This document shows positions 385 through 16,548 of a stretch of 64,000 bases of DNA, piece by piece. Origin of the DNA: Bradyrhizobium sp. LLZ17 (GTDB taxonomy: Bacteria > Pseudomonadota > Alphaproteobacteria > Rhizobiales > Xanthobacteraceae); NCBI RefSeq assembly GCF_041200145.1, contig NZ_CP165734.1, positions 620,001 through 684,000 on the forward strand, written 5' to 3'. Every line of letters starts with the position of its first letter. The stretch's first letter is position 1. The position numbers and the translations under genes are program-made. The notes beneath the pieces are model-generated. The model worked only from the letters and a program-made list of their open reading frames with translations. It ran no database searches and was not told the DNA's origin.

Positions 385-654
385 ATGCCATCTGAAAAGA
401 AAATTAAGATTGAGTTCGTGCCAGGCCAAATCGTTGAAGGCCACGAAGTGAGTGTGGACGAGTCGACTGAGAAGTGGAGCGAATATATGCTGTCCGATGG
501 TACCGTCTTGCGCGGTAAGATCACGATCATCGGCGCCGTCAGGGTCGAGGGCCATTGGGATCCTCAAGGAAACCCCATGTACCAGATGAACATGGCGCCC
601 ACGGTCGTAATTTCGAGTTCTCCTGACAGGTTGAAGCAGAGAACAGGCAAATGA
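385..654 (+). CDS. Small protein of unknown function, first gene of a three-gene module
   Basis: This 89-residue soluble protein contains a stretch around residues 25-45 (DESTEKW, LSDGT) that I recall from small hypothetical proteins in other bacteria. There is no signal peptide or membrane segment. Its stop codon overlaps the start of the next gene (ATGA at 651-654), and that gene in turn overlaps a third, so the three are almost certainly co-translated. I do not recognise a function. It is the lead gene of a cargo module at the left end of the element. Confidence 0.7.
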   Translation: MPSEKKIKIEFVPGQIVEGHEVSVDESTEKWSEYMLSDGTVLRGKITIIGAVRVEGHWDPQGNPMYQMNMAPTVVISSSPDRLKQRTGK

Positions 655-1160
655 GATTGCGCACTCAAACCAACAAATTGGTTACTCAATACGCGGTCAA
701 TGCTTGTGCTCTCGAAAAGGTTCGGGAGACTGAGCAGTTTAGCCTGCTAACTGGGGCTTCCTTTGCGCCGATCGAATGTCGCACCATCTCATTCATGGGT
801 TATCAGACCATCGGCCTGACGGTAGTGTGCGAGATGGACAGCACAAAGGTGCTGGTAGATCACGACTGGGCACTCTTCCAGGAGCTGGTGCGGCAATGGC
901 ATAGTCAGCGGGGCACAACATCTTCGCCGCTCGACATGGCGATGTGTCCTGCCTATCAGCAAATGCTCGCAATGGGCGAGCGCGCTGTACCTCTTATTCT
1001 GAAGCAATTAGAGCTTGAAAGCGATGACCCAGATCATTGGTTCTGGGCACTGAATTTTCTTACCGGTGAAGATCCCGTCCAAGATGAAGATCGCGGAAAT
1101 ATGAGAAAGATGAGTGCCGCATGGCTGCGCTGGGGCCGCAACAACCTACTTGTGATTTAA
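651..1160 (+). CDS. Hypothetical protein with HEAT-like C-terminus, second gene of the module
   Basis: The product has 169 residues. The C-terminal half contains GERAVPLILKQLE, WFWALNFLTGEDPV and AWLRWG, a helical pattern reminiscent of a HEAT-type repeat and of a recurrent uncharacterised family. The start ATG overlaps the preceding stop. The 3' end overlaps the next gene by 40 bases, which implies coordinated translation. No signal peptide or membrane segment is visible. A partner or immunity role for the downstream Cys/His protein would be inference only. Confidence 0.75.
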   Translation: MRLRTQTNKLVTQYAVNACALEKVRETEQFSLLTGASFAPIECRTISFMGYQTIGLTVVCEMDSTKVLVDHDWALFQELVRQWHSQRGTTSSPLDMAMCPAYQQMLAMGERAVPLILKQLELESDDPDHWFWALNFLTGEDPVQDEDRGNMRKMSAAWLRWGRNNLLVI

Positions 1161-1675
1161 CCGGGGGAAGTTGGAGGCAGGCTGACCATCCAAAACTGAA
1201 TGACAATAATGGTCGCGTCACCAGTCCGAAGAAAAACTCCTACAACTGCATAGCTTGGGCCGCCACCGGGTCTACGGAGTCCGAGTGGTGGTGGCCCACG
1301 CTTCCGGGCATGCCAAAAGTTAGCTATTGGCCGCCTGAAGCGCCATCGGAACTCACGATCTCAGCGTTCGAAAAGGCCTTCCAAAGCGTGGGTTATGCCA
1401 GCTGCAAGGATGGCAAGCCTGAAGAAGGATTCGAGAAGATCGCACTTTATGCGAAGAAAACTCCATCCGGACCGATCCCAACTCATGCGGCCCGCCAACT
1501 CGCTGGTGGGAAGTGGACGAGCAAAATGGGACCCCTTCAGGACATAGAGCATCACAAGCCGGGGCACGTGACAGGCCCCGTATACGGAGCAGTAGTTGGT
1601 TACATGAAGCGGAGGCTTCAGGACCCTCTGACAACCGCGGAGGACGCCGGTCCTTCGCAAGCTAACGAAAGCTGA
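1121..1675 (+). CDS. Papain/NlpC-like domain protein of unknown function (DUF7689-type), third gene of the module
   Basis: The product has 184 residues. The core motif SYNCIAWAA places Cys43 at the start of a predicted helix. A strand EKIALYA and PTHAARQL (His122) follow, then WTSKMG and DIEHH (Asp141, His144). The order Cys, His, polar residue on adjacent strands resembles papain-fold NlpC/P60 or CHAP enzymes, although overall similarity is weak. From memory it matches a Pfam domain of unknown function (DUF7689), which was not checked. There is no signal peptide, so it should act in the cytoplasm. The start at 1121 lies inside the upstream gene, and I see no later in-frame ATG before the conserved region. 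Confidence 0.75.
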   Translation: MAALGPQQPTCDLTGGSWRQADHPKLNDNNGRVTSPKKNSYNCIAWAATGSTESEWWWPTLPGMPKVSYWPPEAPSELTISAFEKAFQSVGYASCKDGKPEEGFEKIALYAKKTPSGPIPTHAARQLAGGKWTSKMGPLQDIEHHKPGHVTGPVYGAVVGYMKRRLQDPLTTAEDAGPSQANES

Positions 1676-14226: not shown

Positions 14227-14805
14227 CTATCTAGTTGCCGGCCTCAATCGATTTGAGCAGGCGAGGAACTTGCTCGCGAATGCGCGCCTCGCCGAGCGAC
14301 TCATTGCGATGGTCGAGCAACTCTGCCACCCAGCGCTCAACGTCAGCCTGCCGGCGCCAGCCAGGATCATCATTTTCGTCCGTTGGCGGCCCGCGCCGCC
14401 CGACTTCCTCTCGCAAAGCGAGCTCAACGGCATCCCAATCGGCCTTGGGACGCCGGCCCCCTTCGCCTTTGGGCCTGCCTGCGACGTCCCGGGCTGTCGA
14501 CCTAGCCAGTCGAGCAGATCGTCCTCGCTTATGGTCGATCGAGCGGGTACGGGCGTCAGATCGTAAGAAGTTTTATTACCATCTGCGTCGATGCCAGCCT
14601 TTAACTGCGCACCGGGCCGCATGTTCATGCCGACAATGCCGTCGTCGGCCATCAGCAGCACAGATCGATCTGGGCTTGTTCTGAAGCGAACTTCACCGGA
14701 CGCCTTAGCATCTCGCAGTATTTTTTGGGAGCGCCCAACGCTGCCCCCGGCGCGGGTTCGAACCAATTCCATAGCTTCATCGGGGGAAAGCCACCGCTCG
14801 CTCAT
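14227..14805 (-). pseudogene. Element accessory gene, frameshifted
   Basis: The frame from the ATG at 14805 gives a plausible N-terminal half (WLSPDEAMELV, ISEDDLLDWLG) but changes into a non-native Ser/Arg-rich tail. The expected C-terminus (RRPKADWDAVE, DENDDPGWRRQADVERW, ending EAGN at 14231) is in another frame beginning right at the C-run 14457-14461 (a G-run on the coding strand). One extra base in that run would restore a protein of about 190 residues. The start overlaps the integrase stop (ATGA). It is either a true mutation, a sequencing error or a slippage site. The function of the family is unknown. Confidence 0.7.
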
Positions 14806-16016
14806 GCCGCGGCCTCCGCGGGCTGCTCGGTCACGATCCTGTCCAGATGCTTAGCCCAACGGTCGAGTGCTATGCGCTTCTCGTCGGCGTAGAGGTAGGT
14901 CTGGTAGGTTCGCTCAAGTTTCGGCGGCAGATGATTCAAGCAAGCTTCGACGATGTGCGGCTCAGTTCCTATTCGCTGCAGTCCGTTTGCAAACGAACGC
15001 CTCAGATCGTGAATTGTCCACGGCGTGAGCTTGTGCCCGGCCTCGGCGATGCGCCTGTCGAGCGCCGCCTTCGCTTTTGACCATCCCGAAAAACCGCGCG
15101 TTGTGCCGTGACCGAAAACAAAATCTTCGCGCGCTTCCACTGCGGCGGCCAGAAGCTCTACTGCCAGATCGGAGAGCGGGACCATGTGTTCGCAGCCGTT
15201 CTTCGAGCGAGCGGCGGGCAACATCCATTCAGCTTTTGCGAGGTCAATCTCTGAGGTAGCTGCGTGGCCAACCTCATCGCGACGACCGCCGGTGAGGAGA
15301 AGTAGCTTTACAATTTTACCGAATTGATCGTCGCGACACGCCTTCCAAACAATGGCAAGTTCTGAATCGCGGAGGGTGCGCTTGGGCTTGTCATCCTTTT
15401 CCGCGGCGCCGTCATAGAGCGCAAAGACGTTCTTCTCGAGTATCCCACGGCCCATGCACCAGTGCATGAATGCGCGACCGGTCGACCACACATGGCTGGC
15501 AGCGCCTGGGCCGGCGCTCCGCGAGATCTTCTTATACAAGCTGGCGATATCGTCCTGGGTGATAGTGCGAATTGCCCTAGATGAGAGCGGCCTGCAGTGG
15601 TCTTCCAGATGACGCTTCACCTCAGCATAGGAGCGAGGGCGCATCGGCTTCTTGTTTTGCTTAATTGGGTGCAGCTTCTCGTCTAGGTATTCGGCGACAA
15701 GCTCGCCGAAGTGGTCTTTGTGCTTGGCCTGAGCCTGCCGCCGCAGATCGATAGGGTTCTCACCCTTCGCCACATGTCCCGCTGCGATCTTAGCCTCAGT
15801 CTTGGCTTGCTCGCGATTGAATTTGGCAACGTCGCCGATTTCGAACTTGTAGGTGCGACCGCCCTTGGTCATCCGATACTGGTAGACCCACTTTTTCCTG
15901 CCGCTGCGATAGACCCTGACGCCGAAGTTTTCGATCGAGTTATCGAAAAAGATCTTACCGTCCGGATCATCGGTAGCGAGAGCCAGTTTCTTCACAGCAT
16001 TGTCGGTGAGATTCAT
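14802..16016 (-). CDS. int: P4-type tyrosine integrase
   Basis: The product has 404 residues. An N-terminal DUF4102-like arm-binding domain is followed by a core-binding domain and the catalytic domain. Catalytic residues seen: Arg245 (GGRRDE), Lys272 (SKNG), His336 and Arg339 (HDLRR), His362 (LNH), and nucleophile Tyr374 (TYLYADEKR). It catalyses integration at, and excision from, the tRNA-Trp 3' end. I prefer the ATG at 16016; an earlier in-frame start at 16055 would run through the GGTAGCGC repeats. It heads the leftward operon. Confidence 0.92.
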   Translation of the reverse strand: MNLTDNAVKKLALATDDPDGKIFFDNSIENFGVRVYRSGRKKWVYQYRMTKGGRTYKFEIGDVAKFNREQAKTEAKIAAGHVAKGENPIDLRRQAQAKHKDHFGELVAEYLDEKLHPIKQNKKPMRPRSYAEVKRHLEDHCRPLSSRAIRTITQDDIASLYKKISRSAGPGAASHVWSTGRAFMHWCMGRGILEKNVFALYDGAAEKDDKPKRTLRDSELAIVWKACRDDQFGKIVKLLLLTGGRRDEVGHAATSEIDLAKAEWMLPAARSKNGCEHMVPLSDLAVELLAAAVEAREDFVFGHGTTRGFSGWSKAKAALDRRIAEAGHKLTPWTIHDLRRSFANGLQRIGTEPHIVEACLNHLPPKLERTYQTYLYADEKRIALDRWAKHLDRIVTEQPAEAAA

Positions 16017-16027
16017 AGGCTGCTTTC

Positions 16028-16121
16028 GGTAGCGCACAGGTAGCGCTGGCACCATCAGGGAACATCAAAAATCGCTACCCATGATCACCGAAAACTGATG
16101 GTAGTCTACAAAAATCGGCTA
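16028..16121. promoter_or_regulatory. Candidate right-end integrase arm sites
   Basis: Two direct copies of GGTAGCGC lie at 16028-16035 and 16039-16046, with an inverted CGCTACC at 16073-16079, matching the motif cluster at 69-108 on the other end. A second repeat, CAAAAATCG followed by (G)CTA, is at 16066 and 16109. The cluster lies between the preferred integrase start at 16016 and the attachment site, where arm sites are expected. Function is inferred. Confidence 0.45.
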
Positions 16122-16173: not shown

Positions 16174-16218
16174 CTCCAAAACCGGGGGTCGCAGGTTCGA
16201 GCCCTGCCACTCCTGCCA
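16174..16218 (+). repeat. Right attachment site: 3' fragment of tRNA-Trp
   Basis: The segment begins at the anticodon loop (CTCCAAAACC, 16174-16183) and runs through the T-arm and acceptor strand to CCA at 16216-16218. The last 31 bases equal positions 1-31. The sequence before 16174 does not form a D-arm or a 5' acceptor strand, so this is a fragment left by site-specific integration, not a second tRNA gene. The true core repeat may be about 45 bases, but only 31 can be compared because the left copy is cut by the window edge. Confidence 0.9.
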
Positions 16219-16548
16219 GCTAATCCCCGCCGCCTGCGACCAGAACGCCCGGAAGCTCGTGCCGCGGTTCACCATGACCGGGTAAGCCATTGATCCCGAT
16301 CAGGTCCGCAAGTCGCGGCCGCGAGCATGCCGGCCGGCTCGCATCTTGACCTTTGGCGGCATCCGCAGTATCTACCCCGCACTCGCAGCCGGCCCGTTGA
16401 GATGCGGATATCCGGCGCGGCTTTGAAATCCCCGAACAATCGAGCCCGGTTTCCGGCTCATCCTTCGAGACAGAGGGCTGGGCCAACGGCGGCTGTTCGG
16501 ATCCCCGAAATTCATTCGCGTCTGTCGACGGACGTTGGACATCAAACG
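16219..16548 (+). promoter_or_regulatory. secE upstream region with sigma-70-like promoter
   Basis: TTGACC at 16346-16351 and TATCTA at 16369-16374 are separated by 17 bases and lie about 175 bases before secE. It is the best promoter match in this region. It sits on the core side of the attachment site, so secE and nusG should still be expressed although the element has cut them off from tRNA-Trp. No gene is seen in these 330 bases. Confidence 0.6.

Follow-up and report, generated by a model that had tools for sequence, protein, structure and literature searches.

The window analyzed here, the whole stretch of 64,000 nucleotides from Bradyrhizobium sp. LLZ17 (contig NZ_CP165734.1, positions 620,001 to 684,000; the host genome is a single 7.8-Mb contig), carries near its left end three overlapping genes on the + strand, which we examined as a candidate toxin-antitoxin cassette. 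Gene 1 (positions 385–654; P0001) encodes a small accessory protein of 89 amino acids outside known families; gene 2 (651–1160; P0002) encodes the proposed antitoxin, a protein of 169 amino acids with a variable N-terminus and a conserved, predicted helical domain that may bind the toxin; and gene 3 (1121–1675; P0003) encodes a DUF7689 protein of 184 amino acids, the proposed papain-like cysteine toxin. The overlaps of 4 bases between genes 1 and 2 and of 40 bases between genes 2 and 3 are exactly those given in the first-pass annotation of this DNA. Since position 1121 is the only in-frame ATG, GTG, or TTG ahead of the Cys motif of gene 3, the 40-base overlap follows from the single possible start. 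A promoter and terminator scan of the trio yielded nothing above chance, and a short palindrome (378–393) overlaps the start of gene 1.

Gene 3 matches DUF7689 (PF24738) over the entire profile (1–118 of 118, E 4.8e-39, 134.2 bits vs. a curated cut-off of 22.6), with the domain proper at positions 1214–1609 (+ strand), and the gene 3 query retrieved 2199 database matches. The first-pass annotation had pointed to Cys43, His122, Asp141, and His144 as residues in the order of NlpC/P60-CHAP enzymes. All four were read correctly (+ strand codons 1247–1249 for Cys43, 1484–1486 for His122, and 1541–1552 for Asp141-Ile-Glu-His144, with Asp141 and His144 themselves read from the sequence at 1541–1543 and 1550–1552), and their occurrence is not due to chance, because they are near-invariant: in an alignment of 93 relatives, made of full-length-looking matches and locus fragments and excluding short fragments and fusions, 92 rows retain Cys43 and all 93 retain each of the other three. 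Five residues beyond that list, Cys95, Lys106, Trp132, Ser134, and Lys135, are likewise invariant (93/93). In two fusion proteins from outside the aligned set (P0183 and P0248), Arg replaces Asp141 and the other three residues are kept.

In the predicted model of gene 3 (pLDDT 89.4, pTM 0.82), Cys43, the proposed nucleophile, stands at the start of helix 43–49, His122, the proposed general base, lies in strand 117–126, and Asp141/His144, the proposed third catalytic position, lie in strand 140–144. This predicted topology follows the order of papain-like cysteine peptidases, in which Cys is at a helix start and His and the third residue are on later strands, and at the level of topology the prediction agrees with the papain fold anticipated for gene 3. 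The narrower assignment to NlpC/P60 or CHAP enzymes was rejected, as DUF7689 was the sole Pfam family at E ≤ 1 and neither of the other two gave a profile match. Profiles of our alignments (A6, A7, and A9) searched against PDB chains gave no sequence match at E ≤ 10.

The C-terminal part of gene 2 is a conserved domain (858–1157, + strand; alignment A7, 41 rows, mean column identity 49%) with no Pfam match above cut-off. Its end had been described as HEAT-like, an impression that we share by eye; what stood of this claim is a real conserved domain, all-helical in the corresponding segment of the predicted model of a fusion protein, P0083 (98-row alignment, pTM 0.65). At the level of Pfam profiles, HEAT membership of gene 2 was rejected, since no HEAT family matched gene 2 (E ≤ 1) or the scanned relatives. 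In P0083 this domain, hereafter the partner domain, and DUF7689 form a single chain, as they do in five further proteins (P0145, P0147, P0156, P0183, and P0248; P0151, with a damaged DUF part, and P0077 were left out of the count). The placing of the two domains in the P0083 model is not read as an interface because of the pTM of 0.65. According to the database, DUF7689 is also fused to methyltransferase domains (P0206), to SEC-C (PF02810; P0186 and P0201), and to a long C-terminal part (P0153).

By profile search, the partner domain immediately precedes DUF7689, on the same strand, in 80/80 genome loci from many phyla, a sample biased to near relatives because it comprises the best 80 of 374, and in 19/19 IMG/VR viral contigs. 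Clade samples that were not ranked by similarity, and that share some genomes with the 80-locus set, gave the pair in 3/3 places in 299 Pseudomonadota genomes (the window's own, L085, which is the genome of L003 again, and L086), the partner in 16 of the 17 DUF-profile-positive places in 244 cyanobacteria (the miss, L114, is cut 173 nt upstream, apparently by a contig end), and the partner in 11/13 places (10/12 distinct) in 247 acidobacteria, where the two misses, L191 and L196, are fragments and one RHS-linked case stands apart. Another 19 places, all with the partner, largely repeat genomes of the 80-locus set and were not added to these totals. The nearest gene 3 start overlaps the partner stop in 64 of 81 loci, our own included, in a count that took the ATG nearest the stop as the start and so favors closeness. 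DUF7689 is broken by stops or frame changes next to a partner that is present at L189, L190/L194, L105, L052, and L215.

Among the 244 cyanobacteria, DUF7689 occurs in 14 genomes and the partner domain in 17, and both occur together in 13, where about one would be expected by chance; a strong partner match stands alone in two genomes, a weak one in two, and a doubtful DUF7689 in one. The partner without DUF7689 was also found at L127, L128, and L129. This asymmetry is the pattern expected of an antitoxin. Weighing against it is L084, where a same-genus genome has a divergent DUF7689 that lacks the partner (1456–1989, − strand; above the Pfam cut-off) and adjoins a UvrD-like helicase recognized by eye; both L084 and L118, another match lacking the partner, were missed by our own DUF profile. 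The partner-alone gene at L129 stands beside a C-5 cytosine DNA methylase (E 2.7e-72), as, by likeness, does that at L127, where a Gp49-like gene just under the cut-off is also present.

The N-terminus of the partner differs between loci (153 segments grouped, some genomes twice). At L111 it is a SocA_Panacea domain (Pfam E 1.7e-23; NCBIfam SocA E 4.6e-20, below that model's cut-off), at L042, L068, and L108 a DUF433 domain (E 1.6e-21 to 2.5e-22), and on an IMG/VR contig (L202:4100–4999) a Sigma70_r2 domain (E 1.3e-10). Of nine scanned members of a Phd-like group, seven match the Phd model (E 1.5e-4 to 6.6e-3) but stay under its cut-off, and two, L038 and L128, do not match it; five further heads (L053, L077, L110, L112, and L119) look like ribbon-helix-helix domains by eye and were recognized as such by no Pfam model. 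Many other N-termini had no match, and gene 2 of the window has no DNA-binding or known antitoxin head among these types (Panacea, DUF433, Phd-like, and sigma-70). A known antitoxin domain is thus present in part of the gene 2 relatives: Panacea antitoxins neutralise diverse toxins (PMC10440598; PMC8832971), and the DUF433 (COG2442) antitoxin VapB10 neutralised its toxin in E. coli (PMC3834315). At one locus (L176:1246–2136, − strand), the partner domain shares a single frame with an IS1595-type transposase zinc ribbon that precedes it, and DUF7689 comes next.

Taken together, we propose, with a probability of roughly three in four, that the three genes make up a type II-like toxin-antitoxin cassette, in which gene 3 is a papain-like toxin and gene 2 its antitoxin. 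The proposal draws on what was computed directly, namely gene order, near-obligate pairing, domain swaps, fusions, residue conservation, predicted topology, and one RHS tip described below. The gene 3 product would be a cytoplasmic toxin of papain-like fold with a putative Cys43-His122-Asp141/His144 active site, which probably would cut or deamidate an essential host protein or one sensed during phage infection, and the helical C-terminal domain of gene 2 would bind and silence it. The N-terminus of gene 2, in whose place relatives have Panacea, DUF433, Phd-like, or sigma-70 modules, may serve regulation. With overlapping frames, genes 1 and 2 would be translated first and translation of gene 3 would be coupled to theirs. 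If gene 2 were lost, for example upon loss of the element or upon infection, the cysteine enzyme would be freed to damage a cytoplasmic protein.

Near-obligate pairing and single-chain fusions would fit an enzyme complex as well, in which gene 3 has a house-keeping or regulatory task as a peptidase, amidase, or acyltransferase, gene 2 is its obligate activator or substrate adaptor, and no toxicity is involved; papain-like folds have many non-toxic roles (PMC10318531, in the part consulted). However, the distribution of DUF7689 is patchy: it occurs in 2/146 same-genus genomes (our own and that of L084, whose copy is divergent), 3/299 Pseudomonadota genomes, our own included, 14/244 cyanobacteria, and 9/247 acidobacteria. 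Its presence on IMG/VR contigs and on a tRNA element, the antitoxin heads, and the partner-alone loci also argue against a dedicated enzyme subunit, and we regard such a role as very improbable. Gene 2 itself was found in 2/195 same-genus genomes, our own included; in the other (L222, G969:C1) it is followed by DUF7689, and the pair is probably prophage-borne, since a terminase-like frame (by eye) lies nearby. A tblastn search with the gene 3 protein against 72,556 plasmid records and 50,697 records of phages returned nothing, despite the 19 IMG/VR contigs. Three 907–908-aa frames (L218–L220, E about 1e-3) were taken as chance matches; profiles were run on L218 only, without a match.

The tRNA element is that of the window itself. 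The window starts inside a tRNA-Trp gene (−44 to 31, ARAGORN), the 3′ end of which forms a left attachment-like repeat (1–38, + strand) and is repeated directly at 16188–16225 (+ strand; 92% identity over 38 nt). A tyrosine integrase (14802–16055, − strand; PF00589 E 5.6e-13, PF13356 E 7.8e-13) adjoins the right repeat, at the element end opposite the trio. Because this direct repeat of the tRNA-Trp 3′ end lies beside an integrase, the trio is placed as cargo at the left edge of a 16.2-kb tRNA-Trp element, lying between the tRNA-Trp gene with its attachment-like repeat and the remainder of the element, in line with the cargo position suggested by the first-pass annotation. The element further contains a DEAD/ResIII helicase and a Toprim primase, and beyond the right repeat are ORFs that resemble secE, nusG, and rplK by eye.

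A link to polymorphic toxins may be provided by one locus, L193 (G790:C5:2663–3085, − strand), where DUF7689 (E 4.8e-11, profile 5–95 of 118) follows RHS repeats (E 3.1e-40) and forms the C-terminus of a 4777-aa frame, which is where RHS proteins have their toxin tip. The Cys, His, and WTSK motifs are present in this copy, the Asp/His pair is not evident, and a second RHS-like end can be seen by eye just downstream. This was the only RHS-DUF7689 case found, and no partner domain lies beside it. Gene 3 of the window, by comparison, is a stand-alone protein without a delivery domain, and does not sit at the C-terminal tip of an RHS or CDI protein. The RHS case might suggest that the trio is an orphan polymorphic-toxin cassette, with DUF7689 as a detached RHS/CDI tip and gene 2 as an immunity gene, maintained as protection from attacking kin and not for addiction or defense. 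The best structural matches of the gene 3 model, which include 9l5u, a papain-like toxin/immunity pair, and 8ssk, a CdiA-CT, would agree with this, and Imm-HEAT is a known immunity class (PMC3482391, in the part consulted). However, the examined DUF7689 genes are stand-alone, the partner relatives carry antitoxin and transcription heads, and at L193 no gene 2 domain lies beside DUF7689. Immunity genes usually lie downstream of their toxin, so the upstream position of the partner counts against an immunity gene as well. We therefore consider an orphan immunity cassette quite improbable.

With the toxin-antitoxin reading preferred, gene 1 is its least constant part. A gene 1 homologue precedes the pair in 14/80 of the same best-ranked genome loci, our own not counted, and in 4/19 viral contigs. 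Co-occurrence of all three genes in islands had been named as support; co-occurrence was seen, with few exceptions, for genes 2 and 3 and failed for gene 1, so that what stays constant is this pair, not the trio. Gene 1 has no Pfam, PADLOC, or PHROG match at E ≤ 1, and its NCBIfam matches are below cut-off only. It occurs in 5/247 acidobacteria (ahead of the pair in two, at the end of a contig in one, and at L181 and L182), is fused to a gene 2 family domain in P0141, and heads other cassettes at L175, L181, and L182, in which the third gene is ParE-like (L181, E 2.9e-9) or, below cut-off, HEPN-like (L175, E 0.076; L182, E 0.01). As it also heads cassettes with third genes of these other kinds, gene 1 is probably an operon regulator or an antitoxin stabilizer. 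Eleven loci share another gene, about 248 aa long (e.g., L055:4776–5528 and L032:4764–5519), which lies directly upstream of the partner at all six positions listed; two copies were confirmed as TIGR04255 (E 2.1e-39 and 8.7e-47), a family for which a literature search, with subscription papers and preprints outside its scope, found no paper.

Such companions bear on a further explanation, a multi-component defense system in which gene 1 or 2 senses phage and gene 3 acts as a protease effector of abortive infection, which is compatible with a toxin-antitoxin cassette. The sigma-70 and Panacea heads hint at a sensing or regulatory function, and the partner-alone genes beside a C-5 DNA methylase and the TIGR04255-type gene point in the same direction. 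However, PADLOC-DB 2.0.0 contained no family matching P0001, P0002, P0003, P0083, or P0141 at E ≤ 1, and a defense role seems to us rather unlikely, though less so than the two alternatives above.

That the trio belongs to a toxin-immunity or defense module not described before, as the first-pass annotation had ventured, is supported by the pairing of genes 2 and 3, the papain-like topology, and the position at the element edge. The trio proteins had no PHROG match and no NCBIfam match above cut-off. A literature search for DUF7689 found no paper (subscription papers and preprints lay outside its scope), and none of the matches listed for toxin-antitoxin systems with a papain-like, protease, or NlpC toxin was recognizable, in the parts consulted, as a DUF7689 pair. 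The main text of the NetFlax study (PMC10440598) lacks the words "papain," "peptidase," "cysteine," and "DUF433," and that of the 2023 papain-like classification (PMC10318531), as far as consulted, lacks "antitoxin." It is tempting to go further, and we suggest tentatively, at somewhat less than even odds, that DUF7689 is the first recognized intracellular papain-like peptidase or deamidase toxin class of type II-like systems, that its partner is a plug-in neutralizing domain on at least four unrelated heads (Panacea, DUF433, Phd-like, and sigma-70), through which different signals would free the same protease, and that gene 1 is common to at least three toxin classes.

The toxins of known toxin-antitoxin systems are mostly RNases, kinases, and gyrase poisons. 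If our proposal is true, a protease-like toxin would be added to the field, one neutralizing domain would be re-used behind several known antitoxin heads, and intracellular toxin-antitoxin cassettes would be linked to RHS toxins via the same catalytic domain. DUF7689, a family without a described function, gains a testable role.

Several known systems resemble the trio in part. The paaR-paaA-parE operon is a three-gene toxin-antitoxin system that, like the trio, has a small gene ahead of antitoxin and toxin, whereas gene 1 of the trio has no recognized domain and is present in a minority of loci. NlpC/P60 and CHAP enzymes share with gene 3 the papain-like topology predicted for it, in which a helix starts at the Cys and a strand carries the His, and differ in that gene 3 has no profile match to them at E ≤ 1 and is presumably cytoplasmic. 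Papain-like polymorphic toxins (Tox-PL, CdiA-CT, 9l5u, and the T6SS effectors Tse1/Tae) are similar in the Cys-His-Asp order, the fold as predicted for gene 3, and the pairing of a small catalytic domain with a neutralizing protein, a role proposed here for gene 2, and Tox-PL1 also has an NC-H-DxQ signature (PMC3482391, in the part consulted); the window protein, by contrast, has no delivery domain, has its partner gene upstream, and has no PDB sequence match at E ≤ 10. Modular type II systems (Panacea/SocA, DUF433-VapBC10, Phd; NetFlax) also resemble it. Unlike in those, the proposed DUF7689 toxin is predicted to be papain-like, the partner domain has no Pfam match above cut-off, and gene 2 of the window has none of their heads. 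As in those, the proposed antitoxin gene comes first in an often overlapping two-gene unit of patchy distribution, and the proposed antitoxin of the relatives combines an exchangeable head with a toxin-partner domain.
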